Shown piece after piece: positions 5,008-20,851 of a stretch of DNA of 37,957 bases; position 1 is the stretch's first letter; each line of letters starts with the position of its first letter. Source of the DNA: an uncultured Acetobacteraceae bacterium (GTDB lineage: Bacteria; Pseudomonadota; Alphaproteobacteria; Acetobacterales; Acetobacteraceae); the NCBI GenBank assembly GCA_937902425.1, contig CALFNB010000373.1:1-37957 (forward strand), read 5' to 3'. The notes beneath the pieces are model-generated. The model made no database searches. It was not told the origin of the DNA and was given only the letters and a program-made list of their open reading frames with translations. A program made the position numbers and the translations under genes.

Positions 5008-6147
5008 ATGGATGCCTCGCGTGCCAGTAACCCGCTGTTCGGTCCGAACCGGTTCAAGCTCGGGGTGTTCAGCGCCAACTGCGACGGCGGCCTGACCATG
5101 AGCCTCGCGCCGGAGCGGTGGCCCTGTAACTGGGACGACATCGCCGCCATGAGCGTGCTGGCCGACGAGGCGGGCCTGGAGTTCATCCTGCCCGTCGCCA
5201 AGTGGCGCGGCTATCAGGGCCGCGCCAACGTGTACGGCAAGTCATTCGAGACCTTGACCCATGGCGCCGCATTGGGCGCGCTGACCAAACGCATCGCGAT
5301 CTTTTCCACCGTGCATGTCCCGCTGGTGACGCCGGCTTTCGCCGCCAAGGCGATCGCAACCATCGACCATGTGTCGCACGGCCGCGCCGGCCTCAACATC
5401 GTGTGCGGCTGGAATCAGAACGAGTTCGATTTGCACGGCGTCAAGATCGACCCGGAGACCCGTTACGATCATGGGCTGGAATGGTTCGAGATCTGGTCCC
5501 GCCTGTTGCGCGGTGGACCCGAGTTCGACTGGGACGGACGGTTCTTTCATTTGAAAAAACTGCACACCAACCCGGTGTCGATCCAGCGGCCATGGCCGGC
5601 GGTGATGTCGGCCGGATTTTCACCCAAAGGCCGGGACTTCGCGGCTCGGGCGGCGGATGTGCTGTTCCTGAACGTGACGGAGTTGGACCAGGTGCCGGCG
5701 ATCCTCGCGGATGTGGAGACGCAAATGGCGCGCTACGACCGTTCGATCTCGGTGTTCACGATGGGCCACGTGGTGTGCCGCCCCACCCGGAAAGAAGCGG
5801 AGGATTACTTCCATTATTTCGCTGAGGAAATGGAGGATCCGGAGGGTCAGGCGTATTACATCAAGAACCGCGGCGCGACCGTGTCCGATGGCTCGCGCCA
5901 GATCGCTCGCCCGCTGCTGAACCGCTTTCATCGCGCCACCGGCTTGCACTACGCGGGCGCGTATCCCGGCGTCTACCCGTTCGTCGGCACGCCGGACGAC
6001 ATCGCTGACGAGATGGCGCGTATGAGTGCCTCGGGCCTCGCCGGCTGCACCGTCGCGTTCGTCGATTACCTGAAGGAAATCCCGTACTTCCTCGCCGAGG
6101 TGCTGCCAAGACTGGAGCGTCTCGGGTTACGGGCACCCGATGCTTAG
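5008..6147 (+). CDS. LLM flavin monooxygenase, RutA/SsuD-like
   Basis: A 379-residue flavin-dependent monooxygenase of the luciferase-like family, in the branch holding pyrimidine monooxygenase RutA and alkanesulfonate/dimethylsulfone monooxygenases. Diagnostic stretches are NPLFGPNRFKLGVFSANCDGG-type N-terminus (8-28), LPVAKWRGYQG (61-71), the flavin-site segment STVHVPLVTPAFAAKAIATIDHVSHGRAGLNIVCGW (100-135) and AGFSPKGRDFAARAADV (around 198-214). The start at 5008 has GGAG 10-11 nt upstream; an in-frame ATG at 4972 is less likely. No rut, ssu or sfn partner genes are nearby, so the substrate is unknown. plsY starts only 6 bp after its stop codon, so the two probably share a transcript although their roles are unrelated. 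Confidence 0.88.
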   Translation: MDASRASNPLFGPNRFKLGVFSANCDGGLTMSLAPERWPCNWDDIAAMSVLADEAGLEFILPVAKWRGYQGRANVYGKSFETLTHGAALGALTKRIAIFSTVHVPLVTPAFAAKAIATIDHVSHGRAGLNIVCGWNQNEFDLHGVKIDPETRYDHGLEWFEIWSRLLRGGPEFDWDGRFFHLKKLHTNPVSIQRPWPAVMSAGFSPKGRDFAARAADVLFLNVTELDQVPAILADVETQMARYDRSISVFTMGHVVCRPTRKEAEDYFHYFAEEMEDPEGQAYYIKNRGATVSDGSRQIARPLLNRFHRATGLHYAGAYPGVYPFVGTPDDIADEMARMSASGLAGCTVAFVDYLKEIPYFLAEVLPRLERLGLRAPDA

Positions 6148-14167: not shown

Positions 14168-16891
14168 ATGTCTGACGTAGTTGTCGTAGAATCCCCGGCC
14201 AAAGCCAAAACCATCAACCGCTATCTGGGAGGCGGCTACACCGTCCTGGCGAGCTTCGGCCACGTGCGCGACCTGCCGCCCAAGGATGGCAGTGTCCGGC
14301 CCGACGAAGACTTCGCCATGGACTGGGAATCGGACGCCCGCGGCGAGCGGCAGGTCGTCGCCATCGTCAAGGCGCTGAAGGGGGCGAAGAACCTCTATCT
14401 GGCCACCGACCCCGATCGCGAAGGCGAGGCGATCTCCTGGCACGTCCGCGCCATGCTGGAGGACAAGAAGGCGCTGAAGGGCGTCACTGTCCGGCGGATC
14501 AGCTTCAACGAAATCACCCGCGGCGCCATCCGCGAGGCGATCCAGCATCCCCGCGACCTCGATCTGCCGCTGATCGAGGCCTACATGGCGCGCCGCGCGC
14601 TGGACTACCTGGTGGGGTTCACGCTGTCGCCCGTGCTGTGGCGCAAGCTGCCCGGCAGCCGCAGCGCCGGCCGCGTGCAGTCGGTCGCGCTACGCCTGAT
14701 CTGCGAGCGCGAGGCGGAGATCGAGATCTTCCGGGCGCGCGAATACTGGACCATCGAGGCGGTGTTCATCACCCCCGCCGGCGCCCCGTTCGCGGCAAAA
14801 CTGACCCATCTGAACGGCAAGCGGCTGGATCAGTTCGACCTGAATACCCGGGCGCTGGCCGAGGCCGCGAAAGCGATCGTCGAGAGCGGCGAATTTTCGG
14901 TCGGCTCAGTCGAGCGCAAGCGTGTCCGGCGCAATCCGCCGCCGCCGTTCACCACCTCCACGCTACAGCAGGAAGCCTCCCGCAAACTGGGCTTTGGCGC
15001 GCAGCAGACCATGCGGTGCGCGCAGCAGTTATATGAAGGCATTAACATCGACGGCGAGACCACCGGCCTGATCACCTACATGCGCACCGACGGCGTGCAG
15101 ATGGCGAAGGAGGCGATCAGCGCGATTCGCGATCACGTCGGCAAGGAGTTTGGCGCGCGTTACCTGCCCGGCGCACCTCGCGAGTACACCAGCCGCGCCA
15201 AGAACGCCCAGGAAGCGCATGAGGCAATCCGTCCGACCGATGTGACGCGTAGTCCCGATGATGTCGCGCGGGGCCTGAACAACGATCAGCGGCGCTTGTA
15301 CGAACTGGTTTGGAAACGCGCCGTGGCCTCGCAGATGCAGTCGGCGGAGCTGGACCAGGTCGCCGTGGATGTCATTGACGGCAAGGGTCAGACGTTGCGC
15401 GCGAATGGCTCGATCGTCGCGTTCGACGGGTTCCTGAAGCTGTATCGGGAGGATACCGACGACGCGACCGAGGACGAGGACAACCGCATGCTGCCACCGA
15501 TGGCGGCGAAGGATCCGCTGAAGCGGAGCAAGGTGGACGCCAACCAGCATTTCACCCAGCCGCCGCCGCGCTATTCGGAAGCCTCTCTGGTCAAGAAGAT
15601 GGAGGAACTGGGGATTGGCCGGCCCTCCACTTACGCGTCGATCCTGTCGGTGTTGCAGGACCGCAAATATGTGCGGCTGGAGAAGCGGCGCTTCATACCC
15701 GAGGACCGCGGCCGGCTGGTGACCGCGTTCCTGGTCAGCTTCTTCGAGCACTACGTGGATACCGGTTTCACCGCCGCGCTGGAGGAAAAACTCGACGAGG
15801 TGTCAGCCGGTCAGTTGAACTGGCGGGCGGTGATGCGGGCGTTCTGGGACGAGTTCTCCAAGGCGATCGACCAGACCAAAGACCTGAAGATCAGCGACGT
15901 GATCAACGCGCTGGACCAGGACCTCGGGCCGCACTTCTTCCCGGCGCGAGAGGATGGCAGCGATCCGCGGCTGTGCGCGGCCTGCGGTAATGGACGGCTC
16001 GGGCTGAAGCTGGGGCGGTTGGGCAGCTTCATCGGCTGCTCGAACTATCCGGAGTGCCGGTATACCCGCAGTCTGGCGATCGACACCGGGGAGAATGGCG
16101 GCGATACGCTGAAGGATGGCCAGCGGACCCTGGGTCAGGATCCGGAGACCAGCGAGGAAATCACGGTCCGGCGGGGGCCATACGGGCTGTATGTCCAGCA
16201 GGGCGAGCAGACCGAGGACAAGAAAGTTCGTCCCAAACGCACCACGTTGCCGCGCGGGATGGATGGCGACCAGCTGACGCTGGAGCAGGCGATCGGATTG
16301 TTGTCCCTGCCGCGGACGGTCGGACCGCACCCGGAAACGCAGGAGCCGATCCAGGTGGGGATCGGGCGGTTCGGGCCATATGTTCGGATGGGGTCGGTGT
16401 TCGGGTCGCTCGACCGCGATGACGACGTCCTGGCTCTGGGCTTGAACCGCGCGGTGGATTTGATCGCGAAGAAGATGGCGAGCGTGCGGACGCTGGGGAC
16501 GCATCCGAAAGGCGAGTTCGTGGCGGTCCGAAAGGGCCGGTTCGGGCCGTACGTGCAGCATGGTCAGACGGTGGCCAACCTGCCGCGCGGAACGACGATG
16601 GACGACGTGACCTTGGATGAGGCGGTGGCACTGCTTGCCGAGAAGGGCAAGACGCTGAAACCGCGTGGCGCGGCGGCGAAGAAGAAGGCCGCGAGAGGCG
16701 CGCGCACCGGGGTGAAAGCGGCCGCGGGCGATGCGCCGGCACCGGCGAACGCTCGCGCGGCACCGCGGAAGAAAGCGGCGGCGCGGCCGGCGGCGAAAGC
16801 GGTGCGGCCGGCAGCCAAGGCGGCTCCGAAGAAAGCGGCGGCGAAGAAGAAGGCCGGGGCGAAGAAGGCGAAAACTCGCGCGGCGGAATAG
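14168..16891 (+). CDS. topA: DNA topoisomerase I
   Basis: Type IA topoisomerase that relaxes negative supercoils. It is 907 residues. The Toprim domain opens with VVVESPAKAKTINRYLG (5-21) and holds the acidic triad TDPDREGE (80-87). The catalytic tyrosine is Tyr304 in GLITYMRTDG (300-309). After the core there is one clear C4 zinc-ribbon-like motif (CAAC...GCSNYPEC, near residues 605-635), then several FGPYV-type C-terminal repeats (RRGPYGLYVQ, GRFGPYVRMG, GRFGPYVQHG). The last ~75 residues are an Ala/Lys-rich basic tail of the kind seen in many alpha- and actinobacterial TopA proteins. It follows dprA by 31 bp. The usual downstream partner rnr is not here; the next 2.7 kb is an unusual element. 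Confidence 0.97.
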   Translation: MSDVVVVESPAKAKTINRYLGGGYTVLASFGHVRDLPPKDGSVRPDEDFAMDWESDARGERQVVAIVKALKGAKNLYLATDPDREGEAISWHVRAMLEDKKALKGVTVRRISFNEITRGAIREAIQHPRDLDLPLIEAYMARRALDYLVGFTLSPVLWRKLPGSRSAGRVQSVALRLICEREAEIEIFRAREYWTIEAVFITPAGAPFAAKLTHLNGKRLDQFDLNTRALAEAAKAIVESGEFSVGSVERKRVRRNPPPPFTTSTLQQEASRKLGFGAQQTMRCAQQLYEGINIDGETTGLITYMRTDGVQMAKEAISAIRDHVGKEFGARYLPGAPREYTSRAKNAQEAHEAIRPTDVTRSPDDVARGLNNDQRRLYELVWKRAVASQMQSAELDQVAVDVIDGKGQTLRANGSIVAFDGFLKLYREDTDDATEDEDNRMLPPMAAKDPLKRSKVDANQHFTQPPPRYSEASLVKKMEELGIGRPSTYASILSVLQDRKYVRLEKRRFIPEDRGRLVTAFLVSFFEHYVDTGFTAALEEKLDEVSAGQLNWRAVMRAFWDEFSKAIDQTKDLKISDVINALDQDLGPHFFPAREDGSDPRLCAACGNGRLGLKLGRLGSFIGCSNYPECRYTRSLAIDTGENGGDTLKDGQRTLGQDPETSEEITVRRGPYGLYVQQGEQTEDKKVRPKRTTLPRGMDGDQLTLEQAIGLLSLPRTVGPHPETQEPIQVGIGRFGPYVRMGSVFGSLDRDDDVLALGLNRAVDLIAKKMASVRTLGTHPKGEFVAVRKGRFGPYVQHGQTVANLPRGTTMDDVTLDEAVALLAEKGKTLKPRGAAAKKKAARGARTGVKAAAGDAPAPANARAAPRKKAAARPAAKAVRPAAKAAPKKAAAKKKAGAKKAKTRAAE

Positions 16892-17246
16892 TCGAGGACG
16901 CCAAAATCTGTCCATCAGCCGCGATCGCCAAAGCTGGCCCTGAGTGGCACCGTTCGGCCGCTCAACCGCTCACGTCAGGTGCCGATGAAATCGAATATTG
17001 TCGGTACGGCGGCGACGTGCTGAACAGGTTCCCTTGTCCACTGGGATACGACACCAACCGGGCCGCCAGCCTCGCCCTCGCCCTCGCCCTCGCCGGGCAA
17101 GTTCTCGGTACCTCCTCGCGATGGACAGACCGCTGACCGCGGCCGAAAATGAAATTCCGGCCACTGCCTGATTTCGTGCGACTGGTGGACGATCAGGGTG
17201 GCAAAGTTTGCCGATGGTCAGTGAACGATCCGTGAGCACGCGACAC
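16892..17246. other. intergenic gap after topA
   Basis: No gene is supported here. The stretch contains a hexanucleotide tandem repeat, four copies of CTCGCC at 17071-17094. Composition drifts to a mixed, non-coding pattern up to the left inverted repeat at 17247. Confidence 0.4.
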
Positions 17247-17279
17247 CTAGTAGCTCTGCACAGAGGTTTTGACCGGTTG
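17247..17279 (+). repeat. left 33-bp inverted repeat of a 2.3-kb unit
   Basis: CTAGTA, five variable bases, then GCACAGAGGTTTTGAC, one variable base and GGTTG. The reverse complement of 19543-19575 matches at 29 of 33 positions with the same spacing. Weak similarity seems to continue inward (both sides read HRGFDRL when translated inward), suggesting two inverted copies of a longer dispersed element. Confidence 0.8.
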
Positions 17280-17483
17280 AAGGGCGAGGCGGTCCGAGCC
17301 ACGCCGTCAGTCTGGATGGGCGCCTGGGCGGATGGCCGCAGTCGACCCATCTCGGCTATTCAGCTTCGCTTGTTGGCGGCCTGTAATCCGACATTCGTCA
17401 GAAATCTGCTTTTGACATCGACCGGCCATCAGCCGAGGAACCGCGAACGGGTGAGCTGAACAGCGAACCGGGCTCTGGTCCGG

Positions 17484-19266
17484 ATGGACGGCGCTGCGAC
17501 GAAGACTGGGAGGTTGCCTTTGGGCGAGTGGAATCATCTACCTAAACGTCCGCGGGGGCTGCAGGTCAAACGGTGGGAGCGCATGTGCGCGCATGCCCGC
17601 GACCTTCTCGAGTTTGAACGCGCCCAATTAAGCGATCCGCAGAGTCCGCTTGGCGCACGTCTTCACGCGAGCATTGCTGCCGACCGTGACGTCGCAAAAT
17701 GGCGCCAGTTCCCACTCGCGCGCCAAGCCGTGCGTGACTTGGCCGAAGATCAGGACCGCTTCGAACACTGGATCACCGAAAAACCTGCTGAGTTTCTTGA
17801 GTGCTTGGACGCGGCATTCCGTAACCGGTCTACGCGACTTAACCGAGATGATAGCGAAGCTTGGAGCCGTATCGCAAACGGCATCCTCCTTGGGCATCAT
17901 AGGGTACAATTCGCCGCCGGCCAGGGCGGATTCCACGTGGGGGGCTTACGAGACTAGCCAAAAACCGTGCTCTCTTCGATGCGTGGGCAGAACAGAAGGA
18001 GCTTGCGAAGTCCGACTTTCTCTACGTCTACGACTGCGGGTCACATCCTCGCAAGCATGTGGAGGCCGAGATATCATACCAACGGCCCTTGTCATTGACT
18101 CCTCTAGATCGGGAAAAATGACGTGTTTTCAATGCGCTGACGCACCTTCCAGGAGTCGGTTTCTCGGGCCGTTGGTATCAGACCTCCTTCGTAAGTGCGG
18201 CAGCCGGCGGCTCGATGTCCTGTTCCTTTCGCATTTCGACGTCGACCATGTGTCGGGCATCCCGGCTCTGATCGGAGACGGTAAGCTCAAAGCCGATACG
18301 ATAGTCCTCCCCTATGTGGACGATCTTGAGAAGGTAATCGCTTTTGCGCGAGCCGCGACGCGCGACGAACCGATCCAAGCCTTCTTCAAGGATCTTGTCG
18401 TCGACACCGTCGGGACGTTCAAAAACCTGGGTGCAAACCGAATCTTGCTGATCGACAATGGCGATGGTCCGCCACCTGATGCGCCAGTTACCGAACCTAT
18501 CAGTGGCGGCCCTGACGACCTGCCGTGGAAGCTGGGGTCCGCTGGCGAAGAATCGCCTGAGGTTCGAAGCGTAGGTCGCGACAGCTTCTATGTCCGCAAT
18601 GGGACTCTCGACATAGCGGCTACCATCAACGAAGGGCTGCAACTTGCCTGGCGCTTTGTTCCGTACGTGCAGCGTGCGGAGGAGGACGCGAAGGAGCTCT
18701 TCGCTGAGATCGCCGAAACCCTTCTCGCCTGGGATGACGGGAGCTTTCGCCGACGTATCCGAAATCCGGAAGAACGCCGAAAGCTGGTAACCGACCGGGC
18801 GCGTTTGCTTGGCGAAGTCTATCGTCAGGCTTTCGGCAACAAGAACGCAACCAGCCTGTCGCTCTACTCTGGACCCGCTGAGCCCTCCCGCGTCGGCGCG
18901 ACCATGATTTCGCCACGACTCAAGCGCTGGCACTTAGCGAAGATCGGCTGGCTTGGCACGGGCGATGCGCCGTTACGTACGGCGGCCAAGATCGATGCGT
19001 TCGAGACTCATTACTCTGAGTTGCTGGATTCGGTCTCGACATTCATGTTTCCGCATCATGGTTCCATTCACAACAGCAGCGCCAAGCGGCTTATCAGCGA
19101 CGCCGACATTTATGTAGCCGCAGCGGAGCCTGAACGAGATGATTGGAAGCACCCGGACCCACATCTGCGGAATGCCGTTGAGAAAGCTGGCAAGAGATTT
19201 CACCATGTCAGCAGCGCGCGGGACTCAAGGCTGGAGGAGGCAATGATCCTCTTTTGTAGCCCTTAA
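17484..19266 (+). pseudogene. MBL-fold metallohydrolase gene, two single-base frameshifts
   Basis: Three frames join into one protein of about 594 residues if one base is restored at each of two homopolymers. Frame 1 (from ATG 17484) ends VQFAAGQGGFHVGGL at a G6 run (17939-17944). Frame 2 continues TRLAKNRALFDAWAEQKE and LYVYDCGSHPRKHVEAEI to an A5 run (18114-18118). Frame 3 continues to the stop at 19266 with the MBL metal motif LFLSHFDVDHVSG (HxDxDH), LPYVDDLEKV, WRFVPYVQRAEED and MFPHHGSIHNSS. The order xVxF..GQG.F, YDCGS, SHFDxDH, PHHGS is that of stand-alone ComEC/Rec2-like MBL proteins. The first ~140 residues are unrecognised, and could be a fused domain or a separate small gene (alternative ATG 17583). 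The breaks may be real decay or sequencing errors. Confidence 0.72.
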
Positions 19267-19542
19267 TGATTTGGGCTAGGCGCTTTCACCCCTTTTTCCG
19301 CGGGGCCTGCGCGACTAGCGGGTTGCCTGTCCGGTGCCGGGATGAATATCGAGGGACACCTGCAACCGGGAAGGGAGGCTTTGCCGTCGAAAAGCGATAA
19401 CCGTGCAAATGGCCGCTTTCTCCGCTTTCCGCCCGAAAGTTGCCAGGCAGGTCACCACCCACAGCGGTCTTTTCGAAGCAGGCCTATTCTTCCGACCAAG
19501 ACCGGGCGACTGTCGCTCGGGGCGCCAGGAAGAATGCTCCGG
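19267..19542. other. intergenic tail of the inverted-repeat unit
   Basis: This stretch after the MBL gene stop contains no convincing gene. A minus-strand frame of 93 codons spans it into the right repeat, but it reads as part of the repeat rather than a known protein. Confidence 0.4.
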
Positions 19543-19575
19543 CAACCTGTCAAAACCTCTGTGCTGCGGTACTAG
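19543..19575 (-). repeat. right 33-bp inverted repeat of a 2.3-kb unit
   Basis: Reverse complement of the left repeat at 17247-17279, 29 of 33 identical, including CTAGTA at the outer end and the uninterrupted 16-mer GCACAGAGGTTTTGAC. It ends 40 bp before the DUF29 gene start. Confidence 0.8.
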
Positions 19576-19615
19576 CGGCCCTGCTGGAACTGGCAAAACG
19601 GCGAAAGGGGTATCG

Positions 19616-20068
19616 ATGATGAGCGACCTCTACGACGACGACATCGTGCTCTGGAGCGAGCGCCAGGCCGCGCTGCTGCGCCGTCGCGCCGCCGGAGAAC
19701 TGATCAACGAAGCCGAACTGGACTGGCCGAACCTCGCGGAGGAGATCGAGTCGTTGGGTAAGCGCGATGCACGGGAACTGGCCAGCCGGATCACCACGAT
19801 CCTGATCCACCTGATCAAGCTGGAAGTGTCGACCGCGACCGAACCACGCGCTGGCTGGCGTAACACTATCCTGACGCAGCAGACCGATATCGAACTTTTG
19901 TTGAAAGATGCTCCCAGCCTACGCCGGACGGTGCCCGCCGTGATCGCGGATCAGCTGGACATCGCGAAAAAGCGGGCACTCGTGGAACTCGCCGGTGAGG
20001 GTGAACAGATTCTTGTCGACCTCTCGCCGCTCACCTTCACGCCGGAGGAGGTCCTTACGATCGGATGA
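19616..20068 (+). CDS. DUF29 domain-containing protein
   Basis: A 150-residue member of the DUF29 family, small helical proteins of unknown function common in cyanobacteria and alphaproteobacteria and often carried in variable regions. The typical start LYDDDIVLWSERQAALLRRRAAGE (5-28), DWPNLAEEIESLGKRDARELASRITTILIHLIKLE (35-70) and RAGWRNTILTQQTDIELLLKDAPSLR (about 77-102) are all present. The start at 19616 has AAAGGGG just upstream. It is isolated: the inverted-repeat unit ends 40 bp before it and the next gene is convergent. A GC-rich hairpin with a following TTGTTT lies just after the stop. Confidence 0.93.
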   Translation: MMSDLYDDDIVLWSERQAALLRRRAAGELINEAELDWPNLAEEIESLGKRDARELASRITTILIHLIKLEVSTATEPRAGWRNTILTQQTDIELLLKDAPSLRRTVPAVIADQLDIAKKRALVELAGEGEQILVDLSPLTFTPEEVLTIG

Positions 20069-20080
20069 CCGCGGGGGCGG

Positions 20081-20278: not shown

Positions 20279-20851
20279 CTATCGCCGCAATCGGGCCGCC
20301 GCCGCGTGCACACAACGCTCGAACAGCGACAGGTCGTCCCATCGTCCGGCGTCTCCGGTGATCAATACGCCACCGGAACCGGTGATTCCGCCCTCGATCA
20401 TTAAGTTGTCGAACAGGCCGAATTGTTCCACCAGCAAACCGTCGCCATCATGCCACGTGCCATCTTGCCTGGCCTTGGCCTCAGAGCCCAGAGCCTTCAA
20501 CGTGCGCGGCAGAAACGCTTCCGTGGTCGTCGCGTAGCCGAATATCGCCAGGCCCAGAGCCCGAGCGAACCCGACCTCATACACCGTGCCGACATCGGCG
20601 CTCGGTCCGCGAAACGGCGTGAGGTTCGCGATCAACCCCTGACAGCTTTTGATATGCGCTTCGTTGCGTAAGGCGATGCGGCGCCAGAATGGAAACGCCG
20701 CCCATTCGGCGGGCTCCTCGGTCAGGTCGTCGAGTGGCGACACACCGATCAGCCCGTACCGGTCGCAGATCGTCTTCTTGCCCGCTGCCCAAAGCGTGGG
20801 TTGGGGAAAGAAAACATCCGGACCGGCGAGATAAACGCGCGGCGGAACCAT
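20279..20851 (-). CDS. nucleoside 2-deoxyribosyltransferase family protein
   Basis: A 190-residue protein of the nucleoside 2-deoxyribosyltransferase fold, whose classical members swap bases on deoxyribonucleosides. The N-terminal strand and P-loop-like turn RVYLAGPDVFF (5-15) and the active-site segment LIANLTPFRGPSADVGTVYEVGFARALG (73-100) with the likely catalytic Glu92 are clear. The length is a little above the usual 150-165 residues because of an insertion around 105-160. Its ATG directly follows the TGA of the upstream amidohydrolase with no gap (20852/20851), so the two are translationally coupled and probably act in one pathway. Related proteins also act as nucleotide-sugar hydrolases, so the exact reaction is open. 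Confidence 0.9.
   Translation of the reverse strand: MVPPRVYLAGPDVFFPQPTLWAAGKKTICDRYGLIGVSPLDDLTEEPAEWAAFPFWRRIALRNEAHIKSCQGLIANLTPFRGPSADVGTVYEVGFARALGLAIFGYATTTEAFLPRTLKALGSEAKARQDGTWHDGDGLLVEQFGLFDNLMIEGGITGSGGVLITGDAGRWDDLSLFERCVHAAAARLRR

Follow-up and report, generated by a model that had tools for sequence, protein, structure and literature searches.

Mobile insertion cassettes such as MIC231A1 and mic-qnrD are presented in PMC3913671 as a single gene or a few genes flanked by inverted repeats, with no transposase of their own and usually with a target duplication. MIC231A1, from Bacillus cereus, is described there as mobilized in trans by the transposase of IS231A. Elements of the IS630 family insert at TA, according to a passage of PMC2170065, and a title in the reference list of that paper names the TA in CTAG as the preferred target of IS630. 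The DNA analyzed here is a 37,957-nucleotide stretch from an uncultured Acetobacteraceae bacterium (hereafter the window), and it contains at positions 17247 to 19575 a unit that resembles these cassettes: the repeats match those of an IS family, no transposase was detected between them, and a passenger gene, broken and of the MBL fold, sits inside. In contrast to the described cassettes, the ends of the window unit are IS630-type, and ends of approximately 105 and 118 bp recur with unrelated cargo (a retron, a toxin-antitoxin pair, and the MBL gene). With the IS630 family the unit has in common its terminal repeats, relatives that encode DDE_3 transposases, and the TA/CTAG context; however, it has no detectable DDE transposase and is therefore not counted as a member. 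Like the MITEs that carry the same repeats, it is non-autonomous and has terminal repeats, whereas its 1.8-kb cargo gene and the sequence inside its repeats are unlike those MITEs of approximately 140 bp. We consider it probable, at roughly 85%, that the stretch from 17247 to 19575 is a mobile insertion cassette derived from IS630, one that is non-autonomous and whose cargo can be exchanged.

IS630-type terminal repeats

The unit is bounded by a left terminal inverted repeat at 17247 to 17279 (plus strand) and a right one at 19543 to 19575 (minus strand). As the preliminary description had reported, these 33-nt arms are complementary at 29 of 33 positions (88%), have CTAGTA at both outer ends, and contain the unbroken 16-mer GCACAGAGGTTTTGAC. 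From base composition, about 7e-5 inverted pairs of such quality within 5 kb are expected in the whole window. The 16-mer alone is unremarkable: when the window was dinucleotide-shuffled 60 times, 10 of the shuffled sequences contained at least one exact inverted 16-mer pair spaced 200 to 5000 bp apart. The arms recur in relatives, and chance is therefore unlikely to matter. The outer CTAG of the left arm reads as C, TA, and G, with TA the putative target duplication, and CTAG is also present at the right tip. A TA duplication at the two tips of the unit would fit the known target, with the proviso that TA is short and palindromic and that no empty site aligned.

The possibility, raised at the outset, that the repeat occurs only at this locus did not hold. 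When up to 3 mismatches were allowed, a degenerate 25-base form of the repeat matched 17 of the 33 genomes of the genus, the window's own included, against single control matches in three. The 16-mer with at most one mismatch likewise matched 17 of the 59 genomes searched (own included; again against single control matches in three), and an extended form of the repeat matched exactly in 23 stretches of a one-genome-per-species collection. Alignment of the occurrences gave the common terminal repeat (C)TAGTACCTCTGCACAGAGGTTTTGAC. Four elements of approximately 1.47 kb (L230, L231, L233, and L234) have an IS630-type transposase between the same repeats, that of L233 matching Pfam DDE_3 with 101 bits; a 2.03-kb element with the same terminal repeat (L032) has a stop in its transposase, and the repeat also bounds an IS630-type transposase at L128 and L138. 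A Rhizobium plasmid carries an annotated IS630 transposase between weaker repeats, which match the consensus at 25 and 27 of 33 positions. MITEs with the same terminal repeats comprise seven of approximately 140 bp in five genomes of the genus and one of 105 bp; one MITE of approximately 140 bp (L039) lies inside the window's own genome. Paired copies of the repeat also include units without a detectable transposase, and one same-repeat unit (L232) has a transposase remnant beside a resolvase gene. On these sequence comparisons, the window arms are IS630-type terminal repeats.

Some of the related elements showed further features. At L048 (5972 to 6033), two terminal repeats stand back to back on one common CTAG, suggestive of a second element inserted at the very tip of an IS630 copy, and a small LexA-type winged-helix ORF (5685 to 5969) lies at the other end of the element. 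In some IS630 copies (L128, L130, and L138), the transposase gene runs into the terminal repeat, which supplies its final codons (for VKTSVQRY-like residues ahead of the stop). L119, L131, L134, and L135, of which three are Sphingomonas/Sphingobium records and one is a MAG, have 405 bp inside one such repeat in common with L123, the identity beginning exactly at the CTAG tip; a gene near the repeat in L131 is presumably an alkane monooxygenase.

A Pfam scan revealed no transposase between the arms of the window unit. Searches by tblastn with four pieces of IS630 transposase gave no match in the window at E 1e-3, none in the unit at E 1, and none below E 0.09 across the four units with two long ends described below; within the scope of these scans, the original remark that no transposase is visible stands. 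When the transposase protein of L233 was used as a query against the 33 genomes, some match was found in 24. In the window's own assembly, the search for a full cognate transposase returned distant or partial matches only, the best at 41% over about 140 aa, which is weak evidence of absence because the assembly comprises 667 contigs and is 89% complete.

Conserved long ends around different genes

Similarity between units extends well inside the terminal repeats. The conserved left end of the window unit (LE, approximately 105 bp; 17247 to 17352, plus strand) was found in at least five single-end places and three other two-ended units, and the right end (RE, approximately 118 bp; 19458 to 19575, plus strand) is likewise conserved. 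The search that found the ends scored 4 candidates per genome, so the counts are lower bounds: the left end matched at least once in the window's own genome (contig C460, 88%), at least three times in G027 (82 to 87%), and at least once in G025 (80%), and the right 118 bp matched G025 and G430 at 82 to 83% and at least 10 places in G008 at 74 to 80%. Among those found in G008, 9 of 10 right ends lie at contig ends, as for a repeated element. Nine of the right ends in that genome (L034 to L038 and L299 to L302, besides the one in unit L298) have the appearance of an amplified cassette whose cargo is not readable at these places. At L034, an IS630-type transposase gene lies approximately 20 bp outside a right end, and the long ends may be linked to this transposase.

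Four units have both ends: the window unit with its MBL cargo (17247 to 19575), L293 (G025:C56, 1203 to 4674) with a type XI retron and a HEPN-like protein, L298 (G008:C77, 547 to 1636) with a HicB pair, and L243 (G032:C54, 1171 to 2079) with a putative membrane protein. LE and RE profiles match all four in the same relative arrangement; as the profiles were built from those units, blastn between the units is the more independent check. On the plus strand at E 1e-3, only the ends matched and not the middles, with identities to the window unit of 71 to 93% for LE and 80 to 83% for RE. L293 gave no match to L298 or L243 in the same comparison, and its kinship with them therefore rests on the profiles and on the match of each unit to the window. 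Because the four units have common ends and different middles, they are best read as non-autonomous cassettes with exchangeable cargo. The three units other than the window's lack a clean duplication in their outer dinucleotides, and in L293 the outer tip of the left end has decayed. Among plasmids, the whole window unit matched four records (three by the terminal repeat and one by a short piece of an MBL homolog), each window end matched one record by the terminal repeat only, and L293 matched one record by a HEPN-domain gene, without the ends. Two left-end patterns gave 0 matches each in viral contigs.

The cargo differs from unit to unit. L293 encodes a reverse transcriptase-protease fusion (RT-Protease_XI, 552 bits), the feature by which it is classed, from the protein only, as a type XI retron; its second protein is weakly HEPN-like, with 18.8 bits where the cut-off is 28.4. 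L298 encodes a HicB-family protein and a 103-aa partner without a family match, which we take to be HicA-like, and the 149-aa ORF of L243 has no family match and is membrane-like by eye. Single left ends precede genes for an AraC-type regulator (L261), an FRG-domain protein (L294), a HepT-like protein (L295), and a dienelactone-hydrolase-like protein (L296), these cargo calls being approximate since the far boundary of the cassette is not readable at such places. Downstream of a further left end (L031) lies a 988-aa ORF, presumably a Tn3 transposase. With L031 excluded, 8 presumed cargo ORFs remain, as chosen by the analyst; 7 of them point away from the left end, and that of L243 is the exception. 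Other transposase-less units have similar repeats without the long ends and carry XRE and HD_3 genes (L229), an XRE-Peptidase_M78 protein (L228), a 479-aa ORF without a family (L242), or a PDDEXK_3 fragment (L246). As a plain observation within this small set of units, defense-type cargo is frequent.

The long ends bear directly on two other accounts of how the unit arose. The first is that an autonomous IS630 copy had its transposase replaced once by the MBL gene, and that the similar-looking units elsewhere arose by accidents of their own. The IS630-type terminal repeats are as this account would have them, and L232, which combines what is left of a transposase with an adjacent resolvase gene, speaks for it too; however, no transposase remnant was detected in the window unit, and ends of approximately 100 bp are common to several units, with none seen around a transposase gene among the loci examined. 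We regard a single replacement as improbable. A second account, rather less probable again, places the MBL gene between two MITEs of independent origin, which would make the unit a composite of non-autonomous elements comparable to the Tn3-derived TIMEs. MITEs of approximately 140 bp with the same repeats do occur in the genus, one of them in the window's genome, and mosaics built from miniature elements are known, to judge from the title of PMC4133298. Yet each end of the window unit has one outer repeat only and no whole MITE, and LE and RE are unlike in sequence, with their pairing kept in four units.

A decayed cargo gene downstream of topA

The preliminary description had seen essentially one gene of the MBL fold between the arms. 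A single gene it is, but a broken one: it spans 17484 to 19266 on the plus strand in three frames (17484 to 17957, about 17940 to 18075, and 18166 to 19266), with a 106-bp MITE-like repeat inside it at 18076 to 18181. This repeat has inverted ends and separates two of the frames; a second genomic copy (C204:7642-7747) is 99% identical over exactly 106 bp, and a partial copy lies in contig C582. Alignments of four homologs from Rhizobiaceae plasmids (515 to 542 aa) are spread over three frames of the unit; for two more distant homologs (411 and 500 aa), strong alignment is confined to a single frame. Judged by its reading frames and the MITE-like interruption, the window cargo is a pseudogene, and therefore presumably no working protein is made from this copy.

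The carboxy-terminal 366 aa were found in 1 of the 33 genomes of the genus, the window's own, and in 6 of 385 genomes of the class (own included). They also matched 23 plasmid records, including 18 from Rhizobium; the N-terminal 157 aa of the broken gene had no match among plasmids. In viral contigs, three stretches fit a pattern for the MBL gene, none of them a relative. The window gene shows weak local profile similarity to the MBL proteins of Lamassu (LmuA), AVAST type 1 (Avs1a), and PDC-M48B (E 3.5e-5 to 1e-3 for the window fragment and down to 4e-7 for intact homologs), the PADLOC models here carrying no cut-off, and it is not assigned to any of them. Membership in Avs1a was rejected, as the 366-aa fragment scored 19.4 of 420 bits in NCBIfam. 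Any antiviral role of the cargo is putative. The GC content of the unit is 0.588, compared to 0.640 for the remaining window.

A family scan bore out topA (14168 to 16891, plus strand) as the left neighbor, outside the cassette, and a DUF29 gene (19616 to 20068, plus strand) as the right neighbor. The DUF29 gene was rejected as part of the unit, lying outside the right repeat; its stretch (19576 to 20080) is repetitive, with DNA matches in 22 of the 33 genomes of the genus and in several of them at many places. To the left of the cassette, a short run of CTCGCC direct repeats occupies 17068 to 17098. The closest relative by topA is G027 (88% identity over the 391 aa compared), in which topA is followed after approximately 100 bp by deoxyribosyltransferase and amidohydrolase genes. 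In the window, both lie beyond the MBL and DUF29 genes, the nucleoside deoxyribosyltransferase-like gene at 20279 to 20851 on the minus strand. Neither an MBL gene nor DUF29 is present in the topA neighborhood of G027, which counts against the possibility that the two genes are ancestral beside topA. Of 20 topA loci tested, only that of G027 has the same downstream genes as the window. The intergenic DNA of G027 did not align with either window flank, and the two flanks joined in silico matched DUF29 paralogs only; G027 is thus a candidate empty site by gene order alone. Because DUF29 is also missing there, more than the unit itself may have been gained. The expectation that rnr usually follows topA applied to some relatives only: among 10 downstream ORFs scanned, one per genus locus and chosen by the analyst, 2 had an RNB domain (rnr-like), 5 belonged to other families, and 3 had no family; what follows topA thus differs within the genus.

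That the MBL gene was merely trapped between two inverted intergenic repeats and was never mobile as a unit would sit well with the missing transposase and the decayed cargo, but the same ends surround different cargo in other genomes, the CTAG tips match, and the MBL gene is absent from the other sampled genomes of the genus, which leaves this account very improbable.

A cassette family and its possible role

A non-autonomous cassette moved in trans, one of the options first proposed, is thus the best supported, with IS630-type repeats and the same long ends around different genes in three other genomes, the trans action itself being inferred. In such a cassette, LE and RE, each with its 33-bp terminal repeat, would be the sites bound and cut by an IS630-family transposase supplied in trans, and cut-and-paste insertion into CTAG would duplicate the TA. 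The window unit would have been mobilized in this way as well. The interior would be the cargo, here an MBL-fold gene with relatives on rhizobial plasmids and in sister cassettes other single genes or pairs. More tentatively, and with the balance of probability somewhat against it, the units could belong to a genus-wide family of transposase-less cassettes with standard ends that shuttle defense-type genes (retron, HicB-, HepT-, FRG-type, and MBL), almost all of them pointing away from the left end, as an exchange pool resembling that of integron cassettes and run by borrowed IS630 transposases.

The mobile insertion cassette is a known kind of element, and what appears new are the conserved long ends and the defense-type cargo; no IS630-type mobile insertion cassette with defense cargo was found among the literature matches listed, which came largely from outside subscription journals. 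The interest lies in the small family, with its conserved long ends and its cargo that changes from unit to unit, rather than in the window copy alone. It is not settled how single defense genes and toxin-antitoxin pairs are disseminated other than by phages, plasmids, and large islands. If our reading is correct, cassettes with standard ends, mobilized by a common transposase, would offer a simple answer; they would be recognizable by their ends alone, and those ends would provide a sequence handle for finding more such genes in Acetobacteraceae.
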